Program-made: the position numbers and the translations under genes | Assembly (NCBI GenBank): GCA_018694115.1 | Contig: JABHNB010000005.1 | Location: 64,374 to 128,373 of the forward strand | Direction: 5' to 3' | Source of the DNA: an archaeon | Lineage (GTDB): Archaea > Nanobdellota > Nanobdellia > Pacearchaeales > GW2011-AR1 | Length of the DNA: 64,000 nt | Shown here: in pieces, positions 1-62,916 of the stretch | Position numbering within the stretch: the first letter of the stretch is position 1 | Layout of the letters: each line of letters opens with the position of its first letter | The notes under the pieces: model-generated | The model's input: the letters and a program-made list of their open reading frames with translations, nothing else | The model's database searches: none | What the model was told of the DNA's origin: nothing

Positions 1-33
1 CAGAAGAGCGAGGCAGATTTAATGATAGAATAG
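1..33 (+). CDS. possible 3' end of a plus-strand gene (partial)
   Basis: The first 33 bases read in frame 1 as an open tail ending in LMIE and TAG. A gene convergent with aroB may therefore run into the window from the left. A second frame also ends here in TAA at 25. The fragment is too short to choose between frames or to assign a function. Confidence 0.2.
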   Translation, partial: QKSEADLMIE

Positions 34-49
34 TTCTTGATGAGACAAT

Positions 50-1171
50 TCAACGTGATGACTGAAGTGCGGCCATTACAACTTCATCATCCACATAAGT
101 TGCATATTTTCCATCGAAGTCATGCATCTTCCCAATAGAAACTGGAAGGGAATACATTGCCTTTCCCCCCACAGCCTTTTTATCTGTGGCAGTAACCTTA
201 ATGATATCTTCATTAGAAATCGCGTTTGGAATCTTTGTTGGCAATCCTGCCGCAATCAATAACCCTTCTTGAGCATCTAAATCTTCTTTAGAAAAATGTC
301 CTAACTTATTGGCGATCCTTCCGGCCACCATCATTCCAATAGAGATTGCTTCACCGTGTGATAACTCATAATTACTCAGAAGCTCTACCGCGTGACCTGC
401 AGTGTGCCCATAGTTGAGTATCTTCCTTAGTCCTACTTCATGCGGATCTGATTCGACAACCGCGCCCTTAATCTTACAATTATTCTTCGCAATTCGTATT
501 AAAGATTCAGGAATTTTCCCCAAAACTGATTCAATATTCTCCTGTAAATATCTAAAAAAGTTTCCATCAAAAATAATGCCATGCTTTATTGTTTCAGCTA
601 ACCCTGCCCTATACTCTCGATCTGGCAGATTCTTCAAGACTGCAACATCTAAGTAAACTCTCCAGGGTTGCTTAAATGCCCCAACCAAGTTTTTACCAAA
701 TTCTGTGTCTACTCCAGTTTTTCCACCAATAGATGAATCTGCCTGAGCAAGAACTGTTGTCGGAATCTGAATGTATGGAATTCCCCGGTTGAATATTACT
801 GCCATAAATCCTGCCATGTCTCCAACAACTCCGCCACCAAGTGCAAGAATCGCCGAATCTCGACCATAACCAGAACCAGACATCTCTCCAATAACTTTCA
901 TACAAGAATCAACTGTCTTGCTCTTCTCACCAGCTTCAAAAGAGAATGTTTGAACCTGCAATCCTTCGCTCATCAGAGCATCTTCAAGTTCCTTAGCGAA
1001 TAACTCTCCAACATTTGAATCAGTAACTATTGCATACCGAGAACCAATGGGAGTTTCCTTCAGGTCACTAGCTATCTTGGGAAACAATCCTTCGCCAAAA
1101 ACAAGATCGTAAGATTCATCCACATCTCTCGCTAGAGATATTCTCATAACGTCATCTTTCTGTTCAACCAT
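50..1171 (-). CDS. aroB: 3-dehydroquinate synthase family protein
   Basis: AroB converts DAHP to 3-dehydroquinate, the second shikimate-pathway step, in the cytosol with NAD and a divalent metal. The 373-residue length is usual for the family. Seen here are the nucleotide-binding core GGGVVGDMAGF, followed by QIPTTVLAQADSSIGGKTGVD-type residues (about 110-155), and the metal region with AETIKHG, NYGHTAGHAVE and HGEAISIGM. It stands alone at the window edge with no other shikimate gene visible. A sugar-phosphate cyclase of related specificity (2-epi-5-epi-valiolone synthase type) cannot be excluded from motifs alone. A second in-frame ATG lies at codon 9, just before the conserved sequence. 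Confidence 0.9.
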   Translation of the reverse strand: MVEQKDDVMRISLARDVDESYDLVFGEGLFPKIASDLKETPIGSRYAIVTDSNVGELFAKELEDALMSEGLQVQTFSFEAGEKSKTVDSCMKVIGEMSGSGYGRDSAILALGGGVVGDMAGFMAVIFNRGIPYIQIPTTVLAQADSSIGGKTGVDTEFGKNLVGAFKQPWRVYLDVAVLKNLPDREYRAGLAETIKHGIIFDGNFFRYLQENIESVLGKIPESLIRIAKNNCKIKGAVVESDPHEVGLRKILNYGHTAGHAVELLSNYELSHGEAISIGMMVAGRIANKLGHFSKEDLDAQEGLLIAAGLPTKIPNAISNEDIIKVTATDKKAVGGKAMYSLPVSIGKMHDFDGKYATYVDDEVVMAALQSSR

Positions 1172-5714: not shown

Positions 5715-5763
5715 CCTCTAATCATTTGGGTACTTTTATAAACTCATTTCCTTATCTTCAACT

Positions 5764-6120
5764 ATGGCATTTAGCAAATTCAAAGACAAATCAAAGAAGA
5801 ATAAAGGAAAAACCTTTGTTCCAGGATTTGAAGGTCCAGTAAGAGTAAAGCTTCCAAGAAGCGACGAAGTAATCGGGATTATTACACAAAGACTTGGTGG
5901 TTCGAGAATGTTTGTCTCTTGTATGGATGGAAAGACAAGGAATTGTAGGGTCCCAGGGAGTAAGAGGCGAGGTTTATGGCTCCGAGAAGGAGACGCAATA
6001 ATCGTCAAGCCATGGGAATTCGATGATGAAAAGGGAGATGTTCTATTCAAATACACACCAAATGAGGCGCTTAAGCTAAAGAAGATGGGTAAGCTAACAA
6101 CTGGTGCAGAAGAATTCTAA
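5764..6120 (+). CDS. translation initiation factor aIF1A
   Basis: aIF1A occupies the ribosomal A site during initiation. The 118 residues contain an OB fold with a family-typical path: GIITQRLGGSRMFVSCMDGKTR, then RVPGSKRRGLWLREGD and VKPWEF. The basic N-terminal tail (KFKDKSKKNKGK) is typical. TTTTATAAAC sits 26 bases before the ATG, consistent with a leaderless transcript. It lies between DUF424 and the KH-domain gene, all on the plus strand with separate promoter-like boxes. Confidence 0.93.
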   Translation: MAFSKFKDKSKKNKGKTFVPGFEGPVRVKLPRSDEVIGIITQRLGGSRMFVSCMDGKTRNCRVPGSKRRGLWLREGDAIIVKPWEFDDEKGDVLFKYTPNEALKLKKMGKLTTGAEEF

Positions 6121-6167
6121 TTCTTCCCAAGAAATAATCTTATAAACATTCAAACATTATACATAAC

Positions 6168-6704
6168 ATGAGACAAATACCTGTAGAAAACATGAGAAAG
6201 ATAAAGAAGGCTGTGCCTGCAATAGAAAACAAAACCAAAATAAAAGTTTCTTTCGGAAAAGGCCAGGTAACAATAAGGGGTAATGAATTAGACGAATATC
6301 TCACCGAAAAAGTAATTCATGCAGTTGACTTCGGATTTCATGTTGAAGATGCTCTACTTCTAAAAAACGAAGACTTTGTTCTGGAGTTTATTGGGGTTAA
6401 GGAACATACAAGAAGAAAGAACCTTAAGGAAGTTAGGGCAAGGCTTATTGGAACTGGCGGAAAAGCAAGAAAGACTATTGAAAGCCTCACTGGAGCAGTA
6501 CTTGTAATTCATGACAATGAAGTTGGAGTAATCACCGATTCAAATCATCTTGACGCAGTAACTCAGGCAATCGAATCTCTTATCCAGGGAGCGAAGCACG
6601 GAAACGTTTTCGCATACCTTGAAAAACAGAACATCGCACGAAGAAGATTCGATGAAGAAGATTTAGGGCTTAAGGAAGACGTGATGGAAGAAGATGAAGA
6701 GTAG
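6168..6704 (+). CDS. KH-domain RNA-binding protein, Pno1/Dim2-like
   Basis: A 178-residue protein with two KH-like domains. The second has the GTGGKARKTIE loop (about residues 104-114) and a VIHDNEVGVI strand, as in archaeal Dim2/Pno1, which aids late 16S rRNA maturation. The C-terminal RRRFDEEDLGLKEDVMEEDEE tail is acidic. CTTATAAAC about 30 bases upstream implies leaderless transcription. It completes a run of translation-related genes and is followed 39 bases later by tRNA-Asn. Confidence 0.85.
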   Translation: MRQIPVENMRKIKKAVPAIENKTKIKVSFGKGQVTIRGNELDEYLTEKVIHAVDFGFHVEDALLLKNEDFVLEFIGVKEHTRRKNLKEVRARLIGTGGKARKTIESLTGAVLVIHDNEVGVITDSNHLDAVTQAIESLIQGAKHGNVFAYLEKQNIARRRFDEEDLGLKEDVMEEDEE

Positions 6705-6743
6705 TGATAAGCTTTAAATATCCAATTTCTGATAACTAATCAT

Positions 6744-6816
6744 GCTTCGGTAGCTCAGCAGGTAGAGCGCACGGCTGTTAACCGTGTTGTCGGAGGTTCG
6801 AGTCCTCCCCGAAGCG
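6744..6816 (+). tRNA. tRNA-Asn (GTT)
   Basis: A full cloverleaf: acceptor stem GCTTCGG/CCGAAGC, anticodon loop CTGTTAA with GTT, a T arm GGAGG-TTCGAGT-CCTCC and discriminator G. CCA is not encoded. A TTTAAATA box 25-30 bases upstream is the likely promoter. This is the tRNA that the GatCAB enzyme encoded in the window would serve. Confidence 0.95.
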
Positions 6817-6856
6817 TTCTAACTCGAACCGCAGACAAGTCACCTCCCCGAAGCGT
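6804..6856 (+). repeat. 14-base direct repeat copying the tRNA-Asn 3' end
   Basis: CCTCCCCGAAGCGT occurs at 6804-6817 (tRNA T-arm/acceptor end plus one base) and again at 6843-6856, 39 bases on. Both copies are preceded by AGTC. It may be an attachment-site scar or the relic of a duplicated tRNA. No integrase lies next to it. Confidence 0.6.
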
Positions 6857-6914
6857 ATCTCCCAGCCACTTCTCTCGACTAAACATTTTTATACCTTTAT
6901 CACCTAACTAAATT

Positions 6915-7481
6915 ATGCAACTGATGAATGCTATAAAAAAGAGGAAAAGCGTAAAGAGGTTTTCGAATAAAAAGCCAAACTGGAGAAAGGTTATTCGGGC
7001 GATTGATGCAGCAAGGTTTTCACCTGCCGCAGGAAATCAATTTGCAATGAAGTTTATCATGATTTCTGATAAAGAAACAATTCAGAAATTAGCAGAAGCT
7101 TCCCAACAAGAATTCGTAAGGGATGCACACTTTGTTGTGGTGGCCGTTTCAGATGATTCTAAACTTGAGAGAAGCTATGCCGAAAGAGCATCAAGATACT
7201 CTAGGCAACAAGCAGGAGCAGCAATTCAAAATTTTCTACTTGCAGCTGAAGAACAAGGACTTGCAACCATCTGGGTTGGGCATTTTGTTGAAGATCAAAT
7301 AAAAACTATTCTAGGGATCCCAGAAAAAATGGTTGTTGAGGCATTCTTCCCAATCGGGCATGAAACAGCAATAAAAGGATCCGAAGCCAGAAAACCAGAG
7401 TTAGAGAATATTCTCTACTTCGGGAAGTGGGGCAATAAAAAGATGGAACCCGAGACCCGGATCACATCAAGGAACGCTTAA
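6915..7481 (+). CDS. nitroreductase-family FMN oxidoreductase
   Basis: A 188-residue protein with the family N-terminus RKSVKRFSNKK (FMN phosphate contacts), the ARFSPAAGNQ segment near residue 34 and QAGAAIQNFLLAAEEQGLATIWVG near 95-118. Members reduce nitro compounds, quinones or flavins with NAD(P)H, but the substrate cannot be told from sequence. The gene is monocistronic, with TTTTTATACC 28 bases before the ATG. It converges on ftsZ. Confidence 0.85.
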   Translation: MQLMNAIKKRKSVKRFSNKKPNWRKVIRAIDAARFSPAAGNQFAMKFIMISDKETIQKLAEASQQEFVRDAHFVVVAVSDDSKLERSYAERASRYSRQQAGAAIQNFLLAAEEQGLATIWVGHFVEDQIKTILGIPEKMVVEAFFPIGHETAIKGSEARKPELENILYFGKWGNKKMEPETRITSRNA

Positions 7482-7530
7482 TAATTCTAAGAAAAAAAAA
7501 TAAATAAAAAAATAAAAATAATTTGTTGGT

Positions 7531-8607
7531 TTAGCTTAAATCGTCTAAGCCGAGTTCGTTAACACTAATTGTCTCTTCTTCTTCGAAGGAACTATTTTTT
7601 CCTAGGATGTATGGAGACTTAACTCCAGTCATAATAGTAATGACTCTTACACGACCTTGGAATTCTTTGTTAACCCTTGCTCCGATAATAACTTGCGCCT
7701 CTGGAGAAATATTCTCCGTAACGAGTCGCCCGATAGTATCGAATTCTTCAAGTTTCAAGTCAGGACCGCATGTGATGTGCACAAGTGCACCTGTCGCTCC
7801 ACGGTAATCTACATCCAATAATGGATGTGTAAGGGCTTGCTGAACTGCAGCATCAACTCTCGCGTTGGAGTTGTCCTCACCAATACCGATAACTGCGACA
7901 TCACCGTTCTTCATAATAGAAGAAACGTCTGCATAATCTAAGTTAATCAGCGAAGGCAATGTAATTGTCTCGACGATACCCTTAATCATTGTAGAAACAA
8001 GTTCATTCGCAACAGCAAATGCTTGTTCCATTGGCAGCTGTCCTGCAATATCAACTAGTCGATTGTTATCTAAAACGATAACCGTATCAACAGTCTCTCT
8101 AAGTTCTTGAAGACCGAACTCTGCTTTATCGATTCTTGCTTTTTCGGCTTCGAAAGGCATTGTAACAACCGCGATAACTACCGCGCCCGCTTCCTTAGCT
8201 AACTGAGCAACTACTGGTGCAGATCCGGTTCCGGATCCTCCACCCATACCAGCCAGAACGAAAACCATATCTGAATTAGAAACAGCTTTCTTCAGGTCAG
8301 TAAGAGATTCTTTAGCAGCTTCTCGCCCTCTCTTAGGATATCCTCCACAACCTAGACCTCGAGTCAGTTCCTTTCCGATAAGGACTTTCTCATCAGCCTT
8401 TGTAATAGATAAATGAAGTGCATCAGTGTTTAATCCGTAGATTGTAGCACCGTTGATACCCTTGTTGAAGAGCCAAGTAGCCATGTTACATCCGCATCCA
8501 CCACATCCAAATACCTTAATGTTAGCCTTACCGGCTTTAAGTTCACTAAAGTTGATGCTGTTTGCTTCAACATTTTCGATCGCCTCTTTTGCAAAATCTA
8601 ATGGCAT
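7531..8607 (-). CDS. ftsZ: cell-division GTPase FtsZ
   Basis: FtsZ polymerises into the division ring. The GTP-binding signature GGGSGTGSAP, the T7 synergy loop NLDYADVSSIM and the C-terminal domain with GATGALVHI are all present. The first glycine loop reads CGGCGCN, with three cysteines replacing the usual glycines or alanines. The start is placed at the ATG at 8607, because a strong AGGAGGT ribosome site (8616-8622) precedes it. An in-frame ATG at 8682 would add 25 residues not typical of the family. The C-terminus is short and acidic without an obvious conserved anchor peptide. Confidence 0.93.
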   Translation of the reverse strand: MPLDFAKEAIENVEANSINFSELKAGKANIKVFGCGGCGCNMATWLFNKGINGATIYGLNTDALHLSITKADEKVLIGKELTRGLGCGGYPKRGREAAKESLTDLKKAVSNSDMVFVLAGMGGGSGTGSAPVVAQLAKEAGAVVIAVVTMPFEAEKARIDKAEFGLQELRETVDTVIVLDNNRLVDIAGQLPMEQAFAVANELVSTMIKGIVETITLPSLINLDYADVSSIMKNGDVAVIGIGEDNSNARVDAAVQQALTHPLLDVDYRGATGALVHITCGPDLKLEEFDTIGRLVTENISPEAQVIIGARVNKEFQGRVRVITIMTGVKSPYILGKNSSFEEEETISVNELGLDDLS

Positions 8608-8709
8608 ATTTTTTAACCTCCTTTCAATATAAAGTAGTATTCGTTTAGGGCAACTGTCGTTTAAAAGGATATATGTGCTCAAAAGTATATTCTATAGGTT
8701 ATGATTGAT

Positions 8710-9906
8710 TCAACATTCTGCCATCTGATTAGATGCATGTCTAAGGTCTCTTAAGAGCCAAGGTACTCCTATGGTTCTCCACTCAATTCTCTTGTCTCCA
8801 ATCCCATAATAAAGAAAAAGCGTGTTCGGATCTCCGCCAAGATCATATTCTCCAAAAGAATCATTCTTATTTCCATTGTGTTCCCCGCCACGGGCCATAG
8901 CAGTTAAGAATTCAACCCTCTTCACAGTCCGCAATCTTTCCCCCTTCAATCCAGTAATGTATTCCTTAAGGTGTACTGCTTCATTCTTACCATCCCCCAC
9001 CCTAACCGGGCTACCCGTTTTTGCAATAACTTCTCCAGTATTGGGGTTAAGCTCAATAATTCCTCCGTCATAATTATAATAATTAAGTGTGGGGCCCTCA
9101 GAACCTTTAACCTGATGATATGTGGAAGCCCAATGCCCATCTATCCAGATTGGGGCATCACCAAGACCGTATTTCATAATTCCTTCTGGAGCTCGCATAA
9201 TTGCTTGACTTTCCAAGTTTCTAAAATTATCCACCCAAAATTCCTTAGATGCAAAATCTTCTAAACTATTAGCAACTGTAAGATGAATGTCTGGCTCAAT
9301 TCTATGGATCAATCCGGGTTTCCCCCCAATTTCTACTAATGCTGCATCTTTATCTGCAATCCACGGATTCGCATCGGGGAACGTTTTCCTTATATCTCCC
9401 AAAATTTTCCTATAATGGTCACCATATCTTCCTTCTCCAAAGATTTCCACTGCTTCTTCAAGCCTAATTTGTGGTCCAATAATGCCACATTTCTCAATAT
9501 TCTCAAAATCGCGGGTCTTTGCAAGCGCGATTCGAGCCCCACCATTTGGCCCTTCAACAAATCCCACATATACAATATGATATTCATCTCCAATCTTAGT
9601 TATTCGAGCATCCTCGCACCCGTCAACTTCAAAATCTAATTCTGGAACAAGAATTGTTCTAGGGTTCCCATCAAGTTCTGTAGCACTCAACATCTGCTGA
9701 TACTTAATAACTGATTTCTCCCCATATTTGTTATCTGCCTTAACTCTCGCCCGATAAATCATATGGTTTCCACATCTACTCGGGTTACATACGGCAATTT
9801 CTCCAAGCGCTAAGTCAGGTTCTAATAGAATTCCAGTTTGGTCGATGTGCTTGCCCCGCCTATTTGGAGCCGATTCATCCACTCTTTCAGAAACATAAGT
9901 TTCCAT
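8710..9906 (-). CDS. GH130-like glycoside phosphorylase/hydrolase
   Basis: A 398-residue five-bladed-propeller protein. Family-type motifs are NPSRC with MIYRAR near the N-terminus, GCEDARITKIGDEYHIVYVGF in the middle, DKDAALVEI, and YYGIGDKRIEW near the end. GH130 enzymes phosphorolyse or hydrolyse beta-mannosidic bonds in oligosaccharides or N-glycans. Specificity cannot be assigned. It is a lone minus-strand gene with an AGCTTTATATA promoter box, an 18-base copy of which occurs at about 41.19 kb. It may serve glycan salvage, in keeping with the lyase-like protein at 31 kb. Confidence 0.75.
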   Translation of the reverse strand: METYVSERVDESAPNRRGKHIDQTGILLEPDLALGEIAVCNPSRCGNHMIYRARVKADNKYGEKSVIKYQQMLSATELDGNPRTILVPELDFEVDGCEDARITKIGDEYHIVYVGFVEGPNGGARIALAKTRDFENIEKCGIIGPQIRLEEAVEIFGEGRYGDHYRKILGDIRKTFPDANPWIADKDAALVEIGGKPGLIHRIEPDIHLTVANSLEDFASKEFWVDNFRNLESQAIMRAPEGIMKYGLGDAPIWIDGHWASTYHQVKGSEGPTLNYYNYDGGIIELNPNTGEVIAKTGSPVRVGDGKNEAVHLKEYITGLKGERLRTVKRVEFLTAMARGGEHNGNKNDSFGEYDLGGDPNTLFLYYGIGDKRIEWRTIGVPWLLRDLRHASNQMAEC

Positions 9907-10012
9907 ATAATGGTTATATACAGTCTACTATATAAAGCTTTCTATTGTCATTCCTTAAAAGTAGTTACTCTTCCAGGGCACCACTCTAGAACTCTCAAAA
10001 AACTCCAATCAC

Positions 10013-11347
10013 TCAAAAACTCTCAGCTATCTTAAACATAAATTCCTCACTAAAATGAGGTGCTAAAACTTGCAGCCCAACAGGCCGCCCAGCTTCAACT
10101 TCGCCTGCTGGAACAGAAATCGCAGGAATCCCAACGATATTCGCTAAAACTGTCAAAACATCATAACCATACATATCCTTAATCGAGATTTTCTCACCCA
10201 CCTTATGCGCAGTCCGAGGCACTGTAGGTAAAATGATTGCATCAACTCCCGCGAATAGCTTTTCAAACTTCTCTCGAATAAAGTTTCGTGCCTTCAATGC
10301 TTCTCTATAGTATTTTCCTTCATGCTCTGCCTTAGTAATTTCACTCCCCCCAACAATTCGACGAATAACTTCTGGCCCGCCAGCCTCATCAATCTTAAGT
10401 CCAAATCGACGACCATCAAACTTTCGTGTAGCCGAAAAGAATTCAGTATAAACCAGGATATAATATGTCTCAAGCGCAATATCTAACGGTAAATCAATCT
10501 TCTTAATCTTCCAACCTTTCTTATCTGCAATCTCCTTAGTCCGAGTCTCAATCAAATCAGCAATTTCCTTACCACAATAATCACTAACATCAACAAGTCC
10601 GATCACACCAGTCTTACCGCCCTTTTCTTTCCCCCCCTCCCGAGTTGTCTGATCAAAATTATCCTGCCCCCTAATCACATTAAAAACTATCCGAGCATCC
10701 TCTGCAGTTCTAGCAAGCGGACCAATTACATCAAAACTCATTGTCATATCAATCAAACCATAACGAGAAACCGCACCATATGTTGGCTTCATCCCAACAA
10801 TCCCACAATGCGACGCAGGATTTCGAATGCTCCCCCCAGTATCAGATCCTAAGGAAAAGTCACAAAGATCTGCAGCAACAGAAGCTGCTGAGCCAGAAGA
10901 CGAACCCCCAGGAATCAATGAAGGGTCAACCGGATTCTTAGTAGGTCCAAAAGCAGAAGTTTCTCCAGAAGCCCCACAAGCAAACTCATCCATATTAACT
11001 GCTCCTAAAAAGATTGCATCTTCCGCGATTAACTTATTTATCACACTAGCATTATATGGCGAGACAAAGTTCTCGAGAACTTTAGATCCACAATTTGCAA
11101 CAATCCCCTTAACACAAATATTAGATTTAGCAGCAAAGCATAATCCCGCAAGTTTTCCAACACTCCCTCCAGAAGCAATTCGTTTATCGATCTCCTTAGC
11201 CTGTGCAATAGCCTCTTCATTCAAATGAAGAAAGATGTTTAGGTCCTTAACCTTCGGAGTAGAGATCTTCTTAGAAAAGTTCATCACATTTTCAACTGCC
11301 TTTAATTTCCCTAACTTCACTAGTTTAACCTTCTGCTTCAAGCTCAT
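10013..11347 (-). CDS. gatA: Asp-tRNA(Asn)/Glu-tRNA(Gln) amidotransferase subunit A
   Basis: GatA is the amidase of GatCAB. It releases ammonia from glutamine or asparagine for the GatB-catalysed conversion of Asp-tRNA(Asn). Catalytic residues are visible: Lys74 (AAKSN), the Gly/Ser loop GGSSSGSAA with cis-Ser150, and nucleophile Ser173 in DTGGSIRNPAS. The 444 residues are slightly short at the C-terminus but complete. Its ATG overlaps the stop of the upstream gene by four bases, so it is translated as part of aspS-gatC-X-gatA. Confidence 0.95.
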   Translation of the reverse strand: MSLKQKVKLVKLGKLKAVENVMNFSKKISTPKVKDLNIFLHLNEEAIAQAKEIDKRIASGGSVGKLAGLCFAAKSNICVKGIVANCGSKVLENFVSPYNASVINKLIAEDAIFLGAVNMDEFACGASGETSAFGPTKNPVDPSLIPGGSSSGSAASVAADLCDFSLGSDTGGSIRNPASHCGIVGMKPTYGAVSRYGLIDMTMSFDVIGPLARTAEDARIVFNVIRGQDNFDQTTREGGKEKGGKTGVIGLVDVSDYCGKEIADLIETRTKEIADKKGWKIKKIDLPLDIALETYYILVYTEFFSATRKFDGRRFGLKIDEAGGPEVIRRIVGGSEITKAEHEGKYYREALKARNFIREKFEKLFAGVDAIILPTVPRTAHKVGEKISIKDMYGYDVLTVLANIVGIPAISVPAGEVEAGRPVGLQVLAPHFSEEFMFKIAESF

Positions 11348-11727
11348 TTTTTCTTGACCCGTTTTTTAATTTTCTTTAGTTTCTTCTCTTTTGGCATTTT
11401 CGTTATCTTTCCTAACTCTTCATTAATCTTCTCTCGAACCTTATCTGTGCTATGAATCATCACAAATATCTTGTCCTTTCCATAAAAAACATCTAATCTA
11501 CTCTTTCCAGGATAAGCATTATGCACATCGATAAGTTTTTTGACAAATATTTTTTTACTATTATAATTGTCATCACAATCATCATAAAATAATTCCCAAC
11601 CAGCTTCCAACGCTTTACCAAATAATCCTGCAAGAGTCTCAAAAGCTTCCTGCGTCTTTTCAAATGTATAATAACTAAACTTATCTCGATTCCCAATACT
11701 ATGCATCATAATCTTTTTCTTCTTCAT
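11344..11727 (-). CDS. unknown basic protein X, coupled between gatC and gatA
   Basis: I do not recognise this 127-residue protein. It has an alpha/beta-looking core (YYTFEKTQEAFETLAGLFGK near the start, RLDVFYGKDKIFVMIHS near 80-100) and a very basic tail rich in Lys (KKLKKIKKRVKKK), suited to RNA binding. The start at 11727 gives an exact ATGA overlap with the gatC stop. A GTG at 11736 is the alternative. Its own stop overlaps the gatA start by ATGA. This double coupling suggests a role with GatCAB, for instance tRNA delivery or assembly, but that is inference. Confidence 0.7.
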   Translation of the reverse strand: MKKKKIMMHSIGNRDKFSYYTFEKTQEAFETLAGLFGKALEAGWELFYDDCDDNYNSKKIFVKKLIDVHNAYPGKSRLDVFYGKDKIFVMIHSTDKVREKINEELGKITKMPKEKKLKKIKKRVKKK

Positions 11728-55013: not shown

Positions 55014-56158
55014 AAACGCAAACAGTAAAGGGCTTTCAAGATTTCATTGGAGATGAAGCCTTAAAGAGGGAAAAAATTAGAAAGATTATTTTAGAACAAT
55101 TTGAGCTTTATGGCTTTGAGCCAGCGGAGACTCCTATAATCGAATTTGAAGAATTTATCAAGGGAGATAATCCCCATGATGACGCAGTTCGAGACGTATT
55201 CAAATTGTCAGATCGGGGAAAGAGGAAATTAGCCTTAAGATATGAATTTACATTCCAATTGAAGAGATTGGCAAAAAATCAAAAGTTGCCATATAAAAGA
55301 TATCAGATTGGTTACAATTTTAGGGATGAGCCCATAAGGGAAGGAAGGGCGAGGCAGTTTATTCAGTGTGACGCAGATATTATCGGAAGCTCAATGAAAG
55401 ATGAAGCTGAATGCTTAAATCTTGGAAAGAATATCTTTGAAAAGATGGGAATGCCAGTTAAGATTTATATTAATCATAGAAAATTAATCAACGAAATTTT
55501 AGTTGATGAGGGAATAGAAGAAAAAAATAGGGAACAGGTTATTAGGGAGTTGGATAAGCTAGATAAGTTATCCAAGAAAAAAGTTGCGGATAATTTGAAG
55601 GGTCTCGGGGCGGAAAAAGTTTTAAAGATTTTTACTGGGAAAGAGAAGGATTTTGAAAAGTACAAGTTCTATGGAGAAATTAAGGAACTGAAGAAATTTT
55701 GTAAAATGTATGGAGTGAGTGTGGAGTTTCGACCATTTTTAGCGAGGGGACTTTCTTACTATAATGGATCCGTTTTTGAAATTTGGTCAGAGGAGTTAAA
55801 TGTATCTCTTTGTGGGGGCGGTAGTTATTTGGTTTCTGGGATTCAATCTACTGGAATTTCATTTGGGATAGAACCGATTTTCAGATTATCTAATGTTCAG
55901 GGCGAGGGCGCGAATTATCAGGTGATTTCTGTTGGAAAGGACACTGAAGCGATTAAACTAGCAGAGAACCTTCGTAAGAGGGGTATAAAGGTTAATTTAA
56001 TCCTTGACAAGGCAATAGGCAAGGCACTTGACTATGCAAACTCAAAAGGTGTAGAAAAGGTAATTTTTGTAGGGGACGAGGAAGTCAAATCAGGAAAGTT
56101 TAAGGTTAAAGATATGAAATCTGGAGAAGAAAAACTCCTAAAAGAAAATAAACTTTGA
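55010..56158 (+). CDS. hisS: histidyl-tRNA synthetase
   Basis: A class II synthetase of 382 residues, shorter than the usual 410-430. Motif 2 is FRDEPIREGRARQFIQCDAD. The His-specific loops are LARGLSYYNGSVFEI and GGGSYL (usual GGRYD), and motif 3 is GISFGIEPIF. The C-terminal anticodon-binding domain (INVISVGKD-like start, about 305-382) is compact. The insertion domain appears small. It is coupled to the upstream membrane protein gene by an ATGA overlap, with tRNA-His just before that. Confidence 0.93.
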   Translation: MKTQTVKGFQDFIGDEALKREKIRKIILEQFELYGFEPAETPIIEFEEFIKGDNPHDDAVRDVFKLSDRGKRKLALRYEFTFQLKRLAKNQKLPYKRYQIGYNFRDEPIREGRARQFIQCDADIIGSSMKDEAECLNLGKNIFEKMGMPVKIYINHRKLINEILVDEGIEEKNREQVIRELDKLDKLSKKKVADNLKGLGAEKVLKIFTGKEKDFEKYKFYGEIKELKKFCKMYGVSVEFRPFLARGLSYYNGSVFEIWSEELNVSLCGGGSYLVSGIQSTGISFGIEPIFRLSNVQGEGANYQVISVGKDTEAIKLAENLRKRGIKVNLILDKAIGKALDYANSKGVEKVIFVGDEEVKSGKFKVKDMKSGEEKLLKENKL

Positions 56159-56159
56159 T

Positions 56160-56642
56160 TTACTTTTTCCCGCCCTTACCTTCTTCTGCTTCTCTATTCT
56201 TCTTTCGTTCTCGAGCAGCAGCTCGTCTTGCTTGTTTTTTCTCAAAGTTGTCCTCTGCCGCTGCAAGAGCTGCAAGAGCGTCCTCAGGATCATCATTCCT
56301 CACACTATCTACAAATGGACTATCTCCAGAGAATGGAGGTTCCCTTCGAATAACATTAAGAACCAAATAATATGGATCTCGGCTGTTTATCGAATGGACT
56401 AAAAGGAGAGTACCATCACTTTGATCATAGGGCCTTGCAGAAATAAGATCCTTAAAAGTTAAACGAAATTCTCCCTCATCAGAGCGTTGTTCGATAAGCT
56501 CTCTTCTTTCTTTGGGGGAAACATAATTAGCACCTTCAAGAGAAATCACGCTACCGTCCTCTTTTTGAAGTTCACCAGATCTATTTTTATTAACTATAAC
56601 TTTGCCTTCCTTTACGTAATAAATTGTGGGTTCATTTCCCAT
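56160..56642 (-). CDS. hypothetical protein with basic helical tail
   Basis: An unrecognised 160-residue protein. The N-terminal two thirds are beta-rich (YYVKEGKVIVNKN, LLLVHSINSRDPYYLVLNVI). The C-terminal third is an Ala/Arg/Lys-rich helix (KKQARRAAARERKKNRE) suited to nucleic-acid binding. CTTAAAAGG lies 28 bases before the ATG. It converges with hisS. Confidence 0.55.
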   Translation of the reverse strand: MGNEPTIYYVKEGKVIVNKNRSGELQKEDGSVISLEGANYVSPKERRELIEQRSDEGEFRLTFKDLISARPYDQSDGTLLLVHSINSRDPYYLVLNVIRREPPFSGDSPFVDSVRNDDPEDALAALAAAEDNFEKKQARRAAARERKKNREAEEGKGGKK

Positions 56643-56693
56643 ACTAGAACATCATTAGTCTCCTTTTAAGAATTATTGTGATAAATAATATAC

Positions 56694-57113
56694 CTAATCT
56701 CCTTCATTAATGATCTCAACGATACTCAGTTCTTTTCCGCTCCTTTCTTTTCCCCGTTTCATAAATTTATAGATCAAAACTCCGCCAGCATCTTCATAAC
56801 GTATATTTTCCCTCTTTGATCTGGCCATTTCCTTAGCTAGAAGTTCATCAAATTGCCTTGATTTTTCGTCAGATTTTTCCCCCTCAACTGAAGCCAGATG
56901 GCTCTTCCATGCCCAGGAAGTAATATATGCCATCCCAGTCAATTCCACATCATGACCCTTTCCCACAGGACTCGCATAATAGCTCCCGTCCTCCTTTTCT
57001 AGAAACTCTAATTTCCCCCCAGTCTTATATCTCCTTACAACCGCAGGTTCATAGATTATATTCATGATCTCCGCTTCACTTAAACTTTCTCCATTTTCAT
57101 CGTTTTCATCCAT
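56694..57113 (-). CDS. hypothetical soluble protein
   Basis: An unrecognised 139-residue protein, acidic start (MDENDENGESLSEAEI), mixed alpha/beta core. The ATG at 57113 is chosen since CTTATAAGG lies 27 bases before it. A GTG at 57134 would lie at the promoter itself. It has some similarity in style to its neighbour at 56.16 kb (KEDGSYYASPVGKG versus KEDGSVISLEGANYVSP), so the two may be distant paralogues. Confidence 0.5.
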   Translation of the reverse strand: MDENDENGESLSEAEIMNIIYEPAVVRRYKTGGKLEFLEKEDGSYYASPVGKGHDVELTGMAYITSWAWKSHLASVEGEKSDEKSRQFDELLAKEMARSKRENIRYEDAGGVLIYKFMKRGKERSGKELSIVEIINEGD

Positions 57114-57144
57114 GATCCAGAAACTTGCTTTCACCTTATAAGAT

Positions 57145-57969
57145 TTATTGTTCTACACTATCTACATCATCCGAACCATCATTCAACAAGTCTAATTCTC
57201 CTTCGATTTCCTGAAGCTCTTCAGGGTGTAAATTCAAGGTCATATGAATCTCATCAAAATGAACTGGCTGCCGAAGGAAAAGTTTTCCGTTATTTGACAG
57301 GTGTAAAACTGGAACAAATGATGCTAACTTCTCCTCTCTCGAAGGGGCAAGATGAGAATATTTCATATGGTCATTATCTGGATGATCCACATGTACCTTA
57401 ACTCTCGCAAAAATATTTTTAACCCGGGTTCTCAGTGGAACATGTGTTCCTTTAGGTAAAACAACTAAGATAGATTTCTCCGCTTGTCTGCCCTTGATCT
57501 CTCTCTTGATTCTTCGATTTTCGGTATCAATTGCCTTATTCAAAGCGCCCATCAATTCCTTAAGGGTCACTTTCCGGTGTCTTGCCATTGGAGTTCGAGG
57601 AACAAGGATGGGTAGTTCATTCTCATCAATTTCTAATCTTTCAATTTCATATTTTCTTTCCTCTTTTCGACCATAAAGTGCATCATCGAGACTCTGGATA
57701 TAACTATTAACTAATATGTCCGACTTTAGTCTCAACAATAAGGAACAAGCAAGTAAGACTTTAGATGAGATAAAAAAATCTGCTTCCTCAAGTTGGCTAA
57801 TCGCTTCGACATATTTATCTGCTAAAATTCCAATGTCAATATCCCAGGGATCCAATTGTTCAGTCTTAATTAAATCATAAATTAAAGCTTGCCATGAAAG
57901 CTCTTCACTGGTAATTAAATCAAAAAATTGAGATTGGTTTATTCTATCTACGTCCTCTTTTTCCCTCAT
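57145..57969 (-). CDS. scpA: segregation and condensation protein ScpA
   Basis: ScpA is the kleisin subunit linking SMC and ScpB in condensin. The 274 residues show the N-terminal helices with DLIKTEQLDPWDIDIGILADKY, AADFFISSKVLLACSLLLRLKSDIL-like helices (about 70-100), and a C-terminal winged helix (RVKVHVDHPDN onwards). TTTATTAATAG about 25-28 bases before the ATG at 57969 favours this start over an ATG 11 codons earlier. SMC is not in the window. Confidence 0.85.
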   Translation of the reverse strand: MREKEDVDRINQSQFFDLITSEELSWQALIYDLIKTEQLDPWDIDIGILADKYVEAISQLEEADFFISSKVLLACSLLLRLKSDILVNSYIQSLDDALYGRKEERKYEIERLEIDENELPILVPRTPMARHRKVTLKELMGALNKAIDTENRRIKREIKGRQAEKSILVVLPKGTHVPLRTRVKNIFARVKVHVDHPDNDHMKYSHLAPSREEKLASFVPVLHLSNNGKLFLRQPVHFDEIHMTLNLHPEELQEIEGELDLLNDGSDDVDSVEQ

Positions 57970-58062
57970 GAAACATTTATATATGGCACTATTAATAAAC
58001 ATTTAGATGCCAAGTAGATAAAAAGAGATCCAGTTGGTGTCACTCGGCAATTACAACAGAAC

Positions 58063-58078
58063 CGAAAGGTTTAAATAG
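58063..58078 (+). promoter_or_regulatory. strong archaeal promoter (BRE-TATA) facing the candidate RNA
   Basis: CGAAAGG-TTTAAATAG (58063-58078) is a close match to the archaeal BRE plus TATA box. Transcription would start near 58101, exactly at the edge of the folded region. No plausible start codon follows at leaderless distance. Confidence 0.55.
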
Positions 58079-58099
58079 TATTCCGCATTAATTATAATA

Positions 58100-58300
58100 T
58101 CACCTCTTTTTCCCCAGGAGAGGGCAATAGGGCATCTTTTTGAACGCTTTATTGCCACTCCTAGGGTTTATATTATGTTTAATATTCGAGGCTGTATACC
58201 TCATATAAGACCTAAGCTGGATTACTTGTAATCTAAGGCATTGAAAACAAAACTGTGATATTAAACATGAATCCCCTTTTCTCCCCAGGGTTTCAAATTT
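58100..58300. ncRNA. candidate structured non-coding RNA
   Basis: Hairpin A: CCCCAGGAG (58112-58120) with CTCCTAGGG (58158-58166), then GGCAATA/TATTGCC (58123-58129/58150-58156) and an inner stem. Long-range stem B: ATGTTTAATAT (58175-58185) with ATATTAAACAT (58258-58268), enclosing GAGG/CCTC and GATTAC/GTAATC hairpins. On the minus strand the odd pairs become G-U, on the plus strand they are mismatches, which favours the minus strand. The strongest promoter, however, faces plus. A minus-strand ATTATAAAC box is at about 58317-58326. Confidence 0.4.
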
Positions 58301-58435
58301 CTTCAAAAAGAAAAGAGTTTATAATCCCAACAAAAAATCCATAATTCGTATAAGACCTACGATAACCAAATGAGGTTAAGGCAACGAACGGATTTATATT
58401 TTTTAAAAAATTTAATTTTTTTTTTTGAAAAGAAT
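58301..58435. other. non-coding interval with repeat of TATAAGACCTA
   Basis: TATAAGACCTA at 58349-58359 repeats 58204-58214, and a TTTTC(T)CCCCAGG block also occurs twice (58107-58118 and about 58277-58289). The interval ends in a T-rich stretch (58415-58426). No frame with a credible start is seen, so it is probably a partial duplicate of the RNA region. Confidence 0.35.
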
Positions 58436-58454
58436 CCCCACATTAATGTTGGGG
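58436..58454. terminator. strong stem-loop CCCCA...TGGGG
   Basis: CCCCA (58436-58440), CATTAATG (itself able to pair), T, TGGGG (58450-58454). T-rich sequence lies on its left, so on the minus strand the stem is preceded, not followed, by A/T tract. It may be a processing or regulatory structure rather than a terminator. Confidence 0.35.
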
Positions 58455-58524
58455 GATGATTGCCCTGGGTATGTAAACACTTTAGAATGGTAACGTTTAT
58501 AAATAATAATAATGCCAGTTATTC

Positions 58525-59120
58525 ATGGGCAAGGTATTTTCAACGAGACAGCAGAAGTCATCTACATTAAGTATGTCAGGACTTCGGAAGAATAAGCCTC
58601 AGTATATAATTATACATTCTACAAGGAAACATCCGGAATTTGAAGATGTTCTTAATTGCCATAAGGAAAAGGAATGGGCTGGAATGGGCTATCACCTATT
58701 TTTATCTGATTCTGGAATATTGACTCAGGGAAGGCCATTTGAGTTAGAAGGGGCCCATGCCGTGGGTTTTAATACTAATTCTATCGGATTATGTATTTAT
58801 TCTTCTAATGGTTCACTTAGTCCAAAAAAATAAGGTTAGGAAAAGAGGTAATCAGAGATTTACAAAAACAATTTGGGAATTTAGAATTAATGCCCCACAC
58901 ACTTGCCCAGGTTATGTATAATAACCGATTATTAGAAGAAAGGGGATTAGACCCCCTGCCCGGAGATATTGGGGTTGCTCATGATGAGGAATTTTCAAGA
59001 TTAAAGGAAGCGGCAGATAGTCTTGCTGGAAGATTAAATACTCAAGGTCACGAGGGACTAAAACTTTCGCTTAAAGCTCTTAAGAATTGTCCTGGCGAGA
59101 TATTTTATAGCCTTATTTAG
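58525..59120 (+). CDS. peptidoglycan amidase (T7 lysozyme/PGRP type), split by a -1 frameshift
   Basis: Frame 1 (58525-58833) has IIIHST (His31), GMGYHLFL, QGRPFELEGAHAVGFN (His78) and SIGLCIY, the front half of an N-acetylmuramoyl-L-alanine amidase. It stops after A7 (58824-58830). The -1 frame continues from there to 59120 as IRLGKEVIRDLQKQFGN and ends GHEG...LKNCPGEIF, which supplies the second zinc His, Lys and Cys. A AAA AAA is a classical slippery sequence. Programmed shift, sequence error and a broken gene are all possible. No signal peptide is seen, so the role may be in the cytosol, or export may be non-classical. Confidence 0.65.
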
Positions 59121-59123
59121 AAG

Positions 59124-60320
59124 ATGGAAGAGAGATATATTGGGGTAGAAAATGAACTAATTTCCTTTAAGGATGGCACTGAAGTAGAATTCGGTGATTA
59201 TTTTAAACAGTTAAAAGATTCAGTTGGAAAAACCCACGATATCTCTGGAACTTCAATTAGAACTGATACGGGGCATGGTTTTTATGTGGATGGCGATGAA
59301 ATTGAAATATTAACTCCTCCTATTGCCCTTAACAGGGGATTTTCTAGTAGACTTACCGATTCTTTGATGGCTGGCAGGGATATTGTCCTTGAAGCAACCC
59401 CCGAATTAGAACATACCGGTTATTCTATGCACTGGAATTTATCCGATAATGACAATATTATGGGCAATAGGCTATACGAAGCTATTGCCATACCTTTTCA
59501 AATGTTTGGTCTAACGCCACTTTCCACGGGATTTAATTTGCGTCACAAGGATTATAGATTTGAAATATTGGGAGACTCCCTAACTCGGGAGAATCAGATT
59601 AATGCAACGGCCCTATTGCTTGGCGCGAGTCTTTGTGCTATGGAAGAAAGGAAGTATACTCCTCTGAGATTGGCAGATCGTAGTTTTTCCTCGGATGATG
59701 CGCAGGAGATATTTATTTCTGATGGGAGATATAGTTTTGTTGATGTGGATGTGCCAACTGCAGGCTTCCAAGGTAAAATGCAAGTGCAACAATATTTAGA
59801 ATTATTTCACCGTTGGATAAGTCCCTTCGTTAGACGACTTGGAACAAGAAGGGAGGCCTGGAATCTGGAATCTTTTATATTTGGAAAAGAAAACTTGGAA
59901 TTTGACGATTTAAAATATTTTGAATTAATAGAAGGGGGAGGGGGGGCAGTTGATGGCATTTATAAGCCGATTAGTTTAGCTAATTCTGAGAAGTCTAGAC
60001 AGGTGTTGGTAAAAGGTGAGACTAAACGAGAACTTCCCTTAGAGTGCAGATTGCTTGGAGCAGTTGTTGGAGAATTAACCGACATAGAGGAGTTTGGATG
60101 GGATCATTTGTATTATTCTAGGGATTATGGGAAGACAAATGTGAGTGGAATTGGAGACATTTATCGGCATATGTCTTCCACCATTAAGGGCCTTCCAAGA
60201 TTTAAACCCTCCCAAGATTTTCCTGAGGAAAAGCTAAAAGAAATTAGTGAAGTTGCCTTAAATGATGAAATAAAATATGAACCTGATAAGGATTTATCGG
60301 CAGAATCAGTTCAAGGATGA
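59124..60320 (+). CDS. carboxylate-amine ligase (GCS2/amidoligase)-like protein
   Basis: A 398-residue soluble protein. GVENELIS at the start (Glu-x-Glu type), DGDEIEILTPP (about 57-68), GYSMHWNLSDND and RFEILGDSLTRENQINATALLLGAS (about 148-172) resemble the metal/ATP site order of glutamate-cysteine-ligase-like and amidoligase enzymes, which join amines to carboxylates of peptides. Assignment is by motif shape only. The start lies three bases after the amidase frame, so it is co-transcribed. It is followed by the beta-lactamase-like gene. Confidence 0.4.
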   Translation: MEERYIGVENELISFKDGTEVEFGDYFKQLKDSVGKTHDISGTSIRTDTGHGFYVDGDEIEILTPPIALNRGFSSRLTDSLMAGRDIVLEATPELEHTGYSMHWNLSDNDNIMGNRLYEAIAIPFQMFGLTPLSTGFNLRHKDYRFEILGDSLTRENQINATALLLGASLCAMEERKYTPLRLADRSFSSDDAQEIFISDGRYSFVDVDVPTAGFQGKMQVQQYLELFHRWISPFVRRLGTRREAWNLESFIFGKENLEFDDLKYFELIEGGGGAVDGIYKPISLANSEKSRQVLVKGETKRELPLECRLLGAVVGELTDIEEFGWDHLYYSRDYGKTNVSGIGDIYRHMSSTIKGLPRFKPSQDFPEEKLKEISEVALNDEIKYEPDKDLSAESVQG

Positions 60321-60361
60321 TGCAGTGAAACATCCTAAAGGTACTGGAGAAGGTAATTAAA

Positions 60362-61336
60362 GTGATATCCTTAAGAAATAGAAAACTGAAGAGAAGTTTA
60401 GAGGGCACAATTTCCAAGTTACATGGGGGGAGAGATTTTTCTGGAGAGATAAAGGTATCTGTTTATGATATTGAAAGCGGGGTTAATGCTTCTGTTGGTG
60501 GAAATGATTCTGGTTGGGCAGCTTCTATAATTAAAGTTCCAATTATGATTTCTACCTTGCAAGAGATCGAAAAGGGAAGCCTGACGTCGAGGACAAAACT
60601 TGAAGTAAATCACGAATTTATGTTAGAACCCTGGAATTATGTTTCTAGACTTCCAGATAAATCTAAGATCGGGGTCAAGGAGTTGATATACCGCATGATT
60701 GTTGCTTCAGATAATGAGGCAACAAATATCCTGGCTAACCATATTGGCATTGAGAGAATAAATAGGGATATGTGGGAGTTGGGGATGGAAAATTCTATGT
60801 TGGGACACTTGCTCTGTCCAGGAGCCCAAAGATATACCTCTCCAATGAACCCAGACGGGAGTAATATTACTTGCCCTAATGATATGGTGAAGATTATGAG
60901 GCATATCTACGACGATTCATTTTCAAAATTGAATTCACGTGTTCGTGCTAATGCGGATAAATTTTTGGATATCTCTCCACCACATTTATTGGATACTGGG
61001 GAATTCAGGAATAGTTATATCAAAGCAAAAGCAGGATATATTAGTGATCCAAAAGATGGCGAAGATATACATGAGGTTGGAATTATTGACGATCATCTGG
61101 TTGTCTGTGTTATGCTGAATAAAGTTAAGGATGCGTGGTTTTTCGATAGAGGATTATCGGATCGGGAAGGTGAGTCTCCCTGGGCTTTTCCAGTTTCTAA
61201 AGATGGCTATTTTCAACATGATGGTGATTATTTGATGGACCCTTCTTGTGTTCAGGGAACATTGAGTGGAATGAAACATCTCCCTGGGGGAGTTATCCAT
61301 AGAAAAATTATGAATACTATCGCTAATAATATTTAA
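60362..61336 (+). CDS. class A beta-lactamase-like serine hydrolase
   Basis: A 324-residue protein with the three class A/DD-peptidase motifs: SIIK (Ser55, Lys58), SDN (Ser116-Asn118) and KAG (Lys223-Gly225, for KTG). WAASIIKVPIMIS and MIVASDNEATNIL are typical. A transpeptidase-fold enzyme acting on peptides or beta-lactams is likely. No signal peptide is visible, which is unusual. The start is a GTG with GGAGAAGG upstream. It closes the amidase/ligase/hydrolase group. Confidence 0.75.
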   Translation: MISLRNRKLKRSLEGTISKLHGGRDFSGEIKVSVYDIESGVNASVGGNDSGWAASIIKVPIMISTLQEIEKGSLTSRTKLEVNHEFMLEPWNYVSRLPDKSKIGVKELIYRMIVASDNEATNILANHIGIERINRDMWELGMENSMLGHLLCPGAQRYTSPMNPDGSNITCPNDMVKIMRHIYDDSFSKLNSRVRANADKFLDISPPHLLDTGEFRNSYIKAKAGYISDPKDGEDIHEVGIIDDHLVVCVMLNKVKDAWFFDRGLSDREGESPWAFPVSKDGYFQHDGDYLMDPSCVQGTLSGMKHLPGGVIHRKIMNTIANNI

Positions 61337-61348
61337 AAGTGAACCAGA

Positions 61349-61585
61349 TTATTCCTTATCTTCTAACTTAATCTCAACATTCTTTTTTTCGAACTCTGTA
61401 AAGTGGCATCGCCCACAATAAGCTCTTCCTTGTCCAAGCGATAAGAAAATACCTGGACCACATCTCGGACATGATCTAGCTTTAGAAACTATTTTACCAT
61501 CTTCAATCTTATACTTAGTATATTTCTTAGAAGTAGGCTTGTTAACATGTTTCTTCTTACCCTTAATCTTAGACTTAATTACCAT
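61349..61585 (-). CDS. ribosomal protein S27ae (eS31)
   Basis: A 78-residue zinc protein: basic start ([14 protein letters not shown]), then [13 protein letters not shown] and [11 protein letters not shown] (four Cys). Usual archaeal eS31 is about 50-70 residues, so this has an extended N-terminus. Its start overlaps the eS24 stop by one base, so it is last gene of the rpo7-spt4-eS24-eS31 operon. Confidence 0.9.
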
Positions 61586-62115
61586 TACTTAGCCTCCTCC
61601 GCAGGTGCCGCTTCCTTAACTTCGGGTTCAGCAGGAACTTCAGGTTTAGGCTCACCAGAGTCATCCTTTGAGGATTCAGTTGCAGGAGCTTCTTCCTTTA
61701 TCTCCGCTTCAGCAGGAGCAGCTTCCTCAGTCTTTACTTCTTCAACAGGAGCTTCTTCCTTTGTTTCAGCTTCAGCAGCTTTCGCTTCTTCTGCAGCCTT
61801 CTTAGCGTCTTCCTCAGCTTTCTTTGCAGCATCCTCAGCAGTTTTCTTTTCAGCTTCTAATTTCTTCCTAACTTTCTGAGGAACTGTTTCAACCTTATCC
61901 TTAGCTTCTACAGAATCATAAACAAAAACATCTGCACTAAAACTATGTTTACCAAAATTTGCATTTATCCTATTTACAACAATTAAGTCTTCATCAGCAC
62001 CAGCAGCCTTCTTAACTTCATCATAAGTCGGATTAGTATCTGATTTAAATTCAATTACAATTTCATTTCTAGACAAAAATGGATTCTTATTTTGAGAGAT
62101 AATTTTAGATTCCAT
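61585..62115 (-). CDS. ribosomal protein eS24 with long acidic tail
   Basis: eS24 is a small-subunit protein. Residues about 1-85 carry the fold ([49 protein letters not shown]). After [10 protein letters not shown] comes about 95 residues of Ala/Glu/Lys/Pro-rich sequence ([21 protein letters not shown]) that normal eS24 lacks. ATG at 62115 is chosen, two bases after the spt4 stop. The tail composition resembles the 53.9-kb acidic protein. Confidence 0.85.
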
Positions 62116-62116
62116 A

Positions 62117-62308
62117 TTATTTAGTCTTAATAGCAAACTCGCCTTCCTTGTTTATTTCCATGTTTTCTGCCATCTCAGATTTTTTTGAATCAAAAATATG
62201 GATTCGTCCCTTAAATGTTTCTGTTGATGGTGTCTCGCCACATGCAGGGCACTTATCTCCAAAATAAAGAGTTTTACAGTTCATACATGCCTTTTCCTTA
62301 GATGCCAT
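62117..62308 (-). CDS. spt4: transcription elongation factor Spt4 (RNA polymerase E'')
   Basis: A 63-residue zinc-ribbon protein with ACMNCKTLY and CPACG, then the Spt5-binding half (GRIHIFDSKKSEMAENM). It partners Spt5 in processive elongation. Its start overlaps the rpo7 stop by one base. This arrangement is conserved in archaea. Confidence 0.92.
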   Translation of the reverse strand: MASKEKACMNCKTLYFGDKCPACGETPSTETFKGRIHIFDSKKSEMAENMEINKEGEFAIKTK

Positions 62309-62916
62309 TATTTCTTAGCCCCCTTAGCTCCCTTAGTTGCTTTAGCTTCCTTAGCCACAAGTTCTGCATTCTGTCTCTTTAACTTTTCCTTATCTGCCTG
62401 AACCCAATCAAGCTTACCAAGTCCTGGTTGTCTCATAGTCAAACCAATCTTTGGTTCTTCACCACGATAGGAAATCGCAACAATTCTTGCGATACAATTA
62501 TCTCCTTGAGCAAGCGTTTTCTTACCGTCCTTTCCAGTTAATGTACCTGTATCTGAGAATGAAACAAAGTCATCCATTGTCTGAGAAATATGAATCATAC
62601 CACGAATAACACCCATATTCATGAATGCACCGAAGTTTGTAACTTCTTCAATTGTACCATAAACAGCTTCGTGCAATTCTGGCCTGAAAACAATTAATTC
62701 AAAAGTAGATTCGTAATAAGCAGCACCGTCGCCAGGAATGATGATTCCTTCCTTTACTTCCTTAACATCGAGAACTGAGACAACTGTCCCAATATCTTTG
62801 TCTTGGAATCCAGAATAAGATTCTTCCAGCTGAGTACGCACAGCTTCGTCTGTAGTCATCCCAAACTTATTCGGGTCAACCCTGACATGATCCGTAACTA
62901 GAACTTTCAAGAACAT
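62308..62916 (-). CDS. rpo7: RNA polymerase subunit Rpo7 (RpoE')
   Basis: A 202-residue subunit of the stalk with Rpo4: N-terminal RNP fold (MFLKVLVTDHVRVDP) and a C-terminal S1 domain (AVYGTIEEVTNFGAFMNMG, IARIVAISYRGEEPKIGLTMR). A Lys/Ala-rich tail ends it. It is the first gene of its operon with AAGCTTTATAAACC about 28-30 bases upstream. It lies near a PIN gene with the opposite order to some archaea. Confidence 0.94.
   Translation of the reverse strand: MFLKVLVTDHVRVDPNKFGMTTDEAVRTQLEESYSGFQDKDIGTVVSVLDVKEVKEGIIIPGDGAAYYESTFELIVFRPELHEAVYGTIEEVTNFGAFMNMGVIRGMIHISQTMDDFVSFSDTGTLTGKDGKKTLAQGDNCIARIVAISYRGEEPKIGLTMRQPGLGKLDWVQADKEKLKRQNAELVAKEAKATKGAKGAKK

Follow-up and report, generated by a model that had tools for sequence, protein, structure and literature searches.

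A PafA/Dop-fold ligase-like protein shares a conserved operon with an AmpD-type amidase and a PBP-A-like serine hydrolase in DPANN archaea

In bacterial wall recycling, the peptide-processing steps are cytosolic, with AmpD, LdcA and Mpl serving as amidase, stem-trimming peptidase and ATP-dependent ligase, respectively (PMC13046382, in part of its text). A portion of PMC11189452 describes PBP-A as a DD-peptidase that has no omega-loop glutamate. For Dop, which shares the Pup ligase/depupylase fold with PafA, excerpts of PMC8599861 state that D94 probably activates water and that R227 and H241 hold phosphate. Here, we describe a locus that brings together relatives of these enzymes in an archaeon of the Pacearchaeales. 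It lies in a 64,000-nucleotide stretch of DNA, hereafter the window (assembly GCA_018694115.1, contig JABHNB010000005.1, positions 64,374 to 128,373 of the forward strand). An earlier note on the window had reported a tandem trio at 58525-61336, consisting of an amidase split by a frame shift, a ligase-like protein and a beta-lactamase-like protein, and the open reading frames (ORFs) are where that note placed them.

We find that distant DPANN archaea encode together, in coupled genes, an AmpD/T7-lysozyme-type amidase, a PBP-A-like hydrolase and at least one ligase-like protein of the PafA/Dop fold. The operon is common to Nanoarchaeota, Pacearchaeota and Woesearchaeota, and known relatives of its enzymes act on wall peptides. 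If our reading of it is right, it offers a testable biochemical link between DPANN archaea and their bacterial partners or prey, or else a new archaeal envelope chemistry. The presence of the Pup ligase/depupylase fold in an archaeal, non-Pup context also bears on the origin of the pupylation enzymes; if the ligases do act on wall-type peptides, this fold would serve peptide chemistry beyond protein tagging. Within the open-licence literature, no title or abstract opening describes such an operon or Pup-ligase-like enzymes in DPANN archaea.

Conservation of the operon

Relatives of the ligase gene occur in 11 DPANN genomes, a merged set whose neighbourhoods were read by eye. A search of 371 genomes of the phylum gave eight ligase matches, one of which (G079, E 0.004, among ribosomal genes) was dropped as chance. 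The family profile matched seven of 378 genomes of the class, where G491 and the divergent G459 were new. A scan of genomes of 84,980 species with one peptide pattern (which makes the genome count a minimum and does not establish absence from bacteria) returned nine loci, all in archaeal records and five of them in genomes already counted. Where the ligase relatives are named, their titles read Nanoarchaeota, Pacearchaeota or Woesearchaeota, apart from one titled only “archaeon”. Among 55 close relatives of the window genome, neither the ligase (0/55) nor the beta-lactamase-like gene (0/55) was found.

The amidase gene is a neighbour in nine of the 11 genomes (not at loci L024 and L026), as is the beta-lactamase-like gene (not at L022 and L024). 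All three genes are clustered in 8/11 genomes if L019 and L020, on either side of a contig gap, are taken as a single operon. The conserved synteny that the earlier note had proposed as a check is thus present. In most gene pairs the overlap or the spacer is just a few bases, and the widest gap is 81 bp. This conserved operon rules out a chance grouping of the three genes.

Two gene orders are observed. Nanoarchaeota and Pacearchaeota have the amidase, one or more ligases, in some cases a fourth gene, and then the serine enzyme; Woesearchaeota and their kin have the amidase, the serine enzyme, the ligase and, in some cases, the fourth gene. The ligase tree separates the two orders with 100/100 support, although most of the branching within each side is unresolved and the bootstrap had not converged.

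The fourth gene is found at six loci (L014 3209-4996, L016 10785-12308, L017 757-2328, L020 4316-5605, L021 3918-5147 and L026 6056-7615) and is missing from the window genome and two others. Its product has a helical N-terminal part, in which a hydrophobic segment is borderline, and its C-terminal part is rich in beta structure and partly FG-GAP-like. The FG-GAP match is barely over the cut-off and was seen in one of four members scanned, and the structural model is poor (pLDDT 48, pTM 0.33).

The Nanoarchaeota metagenome-assembled genome (MAG) JAUSIT carries five tandem ligases, two at L019 (5727-9431) and three at L020 (55-6972), which probably belong to one operon spread over two contigs. 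The ligase relative in G459 (L092:5693-7078 on G459:C125, E 9.8e-18) was left out of the 11-genome count. It stands beside several similar-looking genes of unknown function, and no amidase or beta-lactamase-like gene was seen by eye among its neighbours.

A ligase-like protein with the Pup ligase/depupylase fold

The middle gene of the trio (59124..60320, plus strand) encodes a protein of 398 amino acids, a member of a family that has not been described and for which Pfam has no model. It has no Pfam match above chance, and the two families that the earlier note had put forward for it, GCS2 and Amidoligase_2, are no exception; the families expected for the amidase and the serine enzyme were both matched, as detailed below. 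No NCBIfam, PHROG or PADLOC model matches the protein, and a sequence search of the PDB gave no match.

Structure prediction, another of the checks proposed, points to a ligase fold. An AlphaFold2 model built with 14 relatives as input reached pLDDT 80 and pTM 0.85. Foldseek ranked PafA (E 9.8e-12) and Dop (E 1e-10) first, followed by YbdK and then by glutamine synthetases. Alignment to Dop with VIA gave Z 23.2 and a root mean square deviation of 3.8 over 325 residues, placing residues 3..356 of the model on Dop 2..488, with the small C-terminal domain included. The other VIA Z scores were 21.4 for PafA, 18.7 for YbdK (253 residues), 17.2 for the plant glutamate-cysteine ligase and about 11 for glutamine synthetase (GS). 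Based on this model, the middle protein is a GS-fold carboxylate-amine ligase-like protein closest to Dop and PafA, with ligase-type activity as a prediction.

The residues of the GS superfamily are largely in place. Its signature, as set out in a segment of section 5 of PMC2588565, comprises GhExE, acidic residues on strands 2-3, [HQ]x[NH] on strand 4 and a motif on strand 6. The landmarks of the window ligase are GVENE, Y54/D56/E61, H103-x-N105, R140/R145 and W326. In the 14-row family alignment (A4), GhExE stands on strand 1 in 12/12 rows that reach the N-terminus, D56 and E61 are at least 90% conserved, and H103 and N105 are invariant. The strand-6 motif, expected as Ex[RK]x2D or [QH]x4D, takes the form E147-x3-D151 in the window, a spacing one residue shorter.

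A forced profile alignment with six PF03136 proteins, which by itself carries no statistical weight, together with the alignment to Dop, sets Y54, D56, E61, H103, N105, R140, R145 and W326 opposite Dop Y92, D94, E99, H155, N157, R227, R239 and W453 (E99, N157 and R239 being numbered by hand along the printed chain). The family shares with PafA and Dop the fold, the C-terminal domain, GhExE, Y-x-D-x4-E, H-x-N, and the positions of arginines and a tryptophan.

It differs from them on several counts. The predicted Pup ligase/depupylase fold falls outside PF03136, the Pfam Pup_ligase family, which matched none of eight family members. Comparison of the family with six PF03136 proteins by hhalign gave a probability of 1.9%, which is not significant. 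The Dop-loop, described in a passage of PMC8599861 as 40-65 residues before strand 2 that are found in Dop only, is absent from the family, and alignment A4 has a short linker there. E147 stands where Dop has H241. The neighbours of the ligase family are peptide-cutting enzymes and not Pup or proteasome genes. With YbdK and the GCS2 gamma-glutamyl ligases the family shares the GS-superfamily core, but the Z scores are lower, the alignment stops before the C-terminal domain and Pfam GCS2 is unmatched.

Two of the ligases (L016 and L026) have a C-terminal hydrophobic segment. A viral or plasmid origin of the ligase was considered and set aside: no relative was found in viral contigs with either the single protein or alignment A4, in scans that rely on short patterns and may miss distant kin, and tblastn found none in plasmids or phages. 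BFVD holds no structure at E <= 1e-3 for the ligase; the top viral entry, an amidoligase, has E 1.2e-3.

PF03136 is over its cut-off in 5/371 genomes of the phylum, and none of the operon genomes is among the 10/371 that match it at all. Two archaeal bins, both DPANN MAGs, contain apparent pupylation loci, for which contamination is possible. L049 (G393:C6, from the family of the window genome) spans 5233-8595 and L048 (G136:C21) spans 5343-11464. Both have a PF03136 gene beside a proteasomal ATPase-like gene, and L048 also has a proteasome subunit. The candidate Pups are 62 amino acids ending in TGGQ (L049:8407-8595) and 83 amino acids ending in KSGQ (L048:10418-10669).

The amidase and the serine hydrolase

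The first part of the window amidase (58525..58833, plus strand) contains the first histidine and the GYH motif, which align with relatives. The protein matches PF01510 at 37.2 bits (E 4.5e-9, cut-off 26) and the PHROG 822 amidase at E 4.3e-15. Its relatives at L017 (31.6 bits), L016 (27.3) and L015 (64.6) are likewise over the Amidase_2 cut-off. The zinc ligands His, His and Cys, which we assign on the assumption that they correspond to those of T7 lysozyme, are kept in 8/8 full-length relatives in the alignment. The operon amidases share these ligands and the GYH tyrosine with T7 lysozyme and AmpD; they differ in that the second His and the Cys stand further apart, by some tens of additional residues. 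Two short amidases in G031 and G053, found in the amidase profile search, were set aside with no ligase nearby.

As assembled, the frame of the window amidase is broken. A run of seven adenines (58824..58830, plus strand, in CCA AAA AAA TAA) marks a -1 shift, and the second part (58834..59120, plus strand, ORF 58890-59120), with the second His and the CPG Cys, continues in the -1 frame. The zinc ligands are therefore split over two frames. The continuation motifs MPHTLAQV and KNCPGE align with relatives encoded by single ORFs, and in 8/8 full-length relatives the second His and the CPG Cys stand in one frame. The break could reflect an assembly error, decay or a -1 frameshift site; each is possible.

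The third gene (60362..61336, plus strand, GTG start) encodes a class A beta-lactamase-like/PBP-A-like serine hydrolase of 324 amino acids. It matches PF13354 at 102 bits (cut-off 22) and scores 48.5 against the NCBIfam class A beta-lactamase model, whose cut-off is 200. The motifs SxxK (S55-K58), S116-D117-N118 and K223-x-G225 are present in the window copy, and SxxK, SDN and Lys-x-Gly are kept in 9/9 copies (alignment A8). At the KTG motif, Lys and Gly are found in 9/9 copies and Thr in only one, being replaced in 8/9. No copy (0/9) has an equivalent of Glu166 at the position four before an invariant Asn, a position set by counting back from that Asn and not from structure.

The best solved relatives by profile comparison with the PDB are 4ewf (E 7.3e-25) and 2j7v (TLL2115, E 6.8e-24), the latter of which we take to be PBP-A. 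Because the class A deacylation glutamate is missing, the sequence suggests an enzyme more like the DD-peptidase PBP-A than a beta-lactamase. The earlier label of class A beta-lactamase-like thus holds for SxxK, SDN and PF13354, but not for the deacylation glutamate. The operon enzymes share SxxK, SDN and Lys-x-Gly with PBP-A of Thermosynechococcus and the class A beta-lactamases and, like PBP-A, have no omega-loop Glu. They differ in having no export signal, in the replaced KTG Thr (8/9), and in invariant HLL and NPxGSN motifs of their own.

Five operon copies score E 3.2e-130 or better against the serine-enzyme profile, which was built from those same five copies, making the contrast with weaker matches partly circular. 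Weaker PF13354 proteins in 19 further genomes of the phylum (best E 6.1e-20) were regarded as members of other families. A scan of viral contigs, made with short patterns that may overlook distant kin, found no relative of the beta-lactamase-like protein.

Both enzymes are probably cytosolic, since an above-threshold segment of the kind expected for an export signal was seen in 0/9 amidases and 0/9 beta-lactamase-like proteins by hydropathy scan alone. This agrees with the earlier remark that signal peptides are lacking. Wall-binding domains were likewise not found in a Pfam scan of four amidases.

Possible roles and the state of the window copy

We tentatively read the three genes as one operon of a cytosolic peptide cut-and-rejoin pathway acting on muropeptide-like substrates, which we consider plausible but short of probable. 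The amidase would release the stem peptide from the sugar of an imported muropeptide or similar molecule, and the serine enzyme might then trim the end of this stem or transfer it. With ATP, the ligase would phosphorylate a side-chain carboxylate, probably of the gamma-glutamyl type, and join an amine to it, unless it runs in the cutting direction; extra ligase copies could make extra linkages. DPANN archaea are thought to lack peptidoglycan. Mur_ligase_M is matched in only 1/7 operon genomes and not in the window genome (0.9 Mb, 82.7% complete), consistent with the earlier observation that no peptidoglycan is evident. The host cells probably make none, and might obtain it from bacteria that serve as partners or prey.

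The closest parallel is AmpD-LdcA-Mpl, where a cytosolic amidase (AmpD, which we take to be an Amidase_2 member), a stem-trimming peptidase and an ATP-dependent ligase also occur together. The same three activities with a different ligase fold, and with Mur_ligase_M in 1/7 genomes, suggest salvage or remodelling of muropeptides. The operon has a PBP-A/class A-like serine enzyme in place of LdcA, its ligase has the PafA/Dop-like GS fold where Mpl has the Mur-ligase fold, and its host is an archaeon without a Mur ligase match where the recycling enzymes are bacterial. A lytic transglycosylase domain (SLT) is found in 7/8 operon genomes compared with 140/294 in the phylum. Parts of PMC8204110 report extracellular murein transglycosylase-like proteins in some Pacearchaeota and Woesearchaeota, and a life on bacteria is suspected for such archaea (PMC8204110 and PMC9723730, each in part). 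A broader proposal, which we regard as doubtful, is that DPANN archaea have a counterpart of a peptidoglycan-type peptide pathway without Mur enzymes: tandem PafA/Dop-fold ligases would build or remake stem peptides with isopeptide links, and AmpD- and PBP-A-type enzymes would cleave these peptides, either for living on bacterial walls or for an envelope polymer of the cells' own.

Several observations weigh against the cut-and-rejoin pathway. The SLT excess is weak (6/7 vs 134/287 in one sample, one-sided p 0.046), and SLT is unmatched in the genome of the window. Reading frames are interrupted in the window amidase and in the ligase of L022, a locus that also lacks a beta-lactamase-like gene, and the ligase of L024 has an in-frame TAG. 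Furthermore, the ligase loci L024 and L026 have no neighbouring amidase.

The five tandem ligases in one MAG (L019 two, L020 three), the hydrophobic C-termini of the L016 and L026 ligases, and a fourth protein whose N-terminal hydrophobic segment is borderline and which has FG-GAP-like repeats in one member would suit an envelope polymer of the cell's own, unlike murein or pseudomurein, whose peptide is assembled by partly membrane-tethered ligases and cross-linked or remodelled by the serine enzyme and the amidase. We think this unlikely: no transporter, glycan or lipid-carrier gene was seen in the operons, the amidase and serine enzyme have no export signal, and the fourth gene is poorly modelled and missing from three genomes, the window's included. 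Fold similarity to Dop and PafA, extending to the small C-terminal domain, and the catalytic Asp motif kept in the forced alignment would also fit a pupylation-like system, in which the ligase-like proteins put a small protein tag on or take it off, and either the tag or its target is processed by the amidase and the serine enzyme. Such tagging appears improbable, as the operon loci scanned contain no Pup-like small ORF (in the control loci L048 and L049 the same filter recovers both candidate Pups), genes for a proteasome or a proteasomal ATPase were not seen in the operons, no operon genome is among the ten matching PF03136, and the Dop-loop is lacking.

Equally improbable is an antibacterial or predatory cassette, in which the amidase and serine enzyme attack bacterial walls and the ligase arms or protects. 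Sections of PMC12352652 describe archaeal peptidoglycan hydrolases as prominent in Nanoarchaeota, with some archaeal ones killing bacteria, and the transglycosylase-like proteins of Pacearchaeota and Woesearchaeota (PMC8204110, in part) point the same way. Against this, signal peptides are missing, the four amidases scanned with Pfam have no wall-binding domain, a ligase is not expected in such a cassette, and PADLOC gave no match. A last alternative concerns the window copy only, in which an ancestral operon might be decaying and the amidase might be dead. The break at A7, the lack of ligase and beta-lactamase-like genes in all 55 close relatives, and the sister locus L022, which occupies the same chromosomal place without the third gene and with a frame-broken ligase, speak for decay. 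However, the window's ligase and serine enzyme are intact and keep every motif, homopolymer breaks (A7 in the window, T5 in the L022 ligase) are typical of assembly error, and A AAA AAA TAA could serve as a -1 frameshift site. We judge a decaying remnant unlikely; the earlier suggestion of an acquired remnant may be partly right for the window copy, given its broken amidase frame.

The setting of the trio bears on its age. The ScpA gene (PF02616 match) lies upstream of the amidase on the minus strand, and a ribosomal/RNA polymerase group, which by eye we take to be rps27ae/rps24e/spt4/rpo7, lies downstream. As L022 sits at this same position beside scpA and the rpo7 group, the operon has probably stood there for a long time, and it has probably been lost or damaged repeatedly.

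Behind scpA, two minus-strand ORFs of 160 and 146 amino acids (56160-57134) have no Pfam match, and no Rfam match was found anywhere in window positions 56000-62500. The 522-bp intergenic stretch upstream of the amidase (58003-58524) contains a 19-nt direct repeat at 58196 and 58341 and a palindrome, CCCCACATTAATGTTGGG, at 58436-58453. The TATA-box-like sequence TTTATAAATA (58497..58506, plus strand), about 19-28 bp 5' of the amidase ATG, is a candidate leaderless archaeal promoter.

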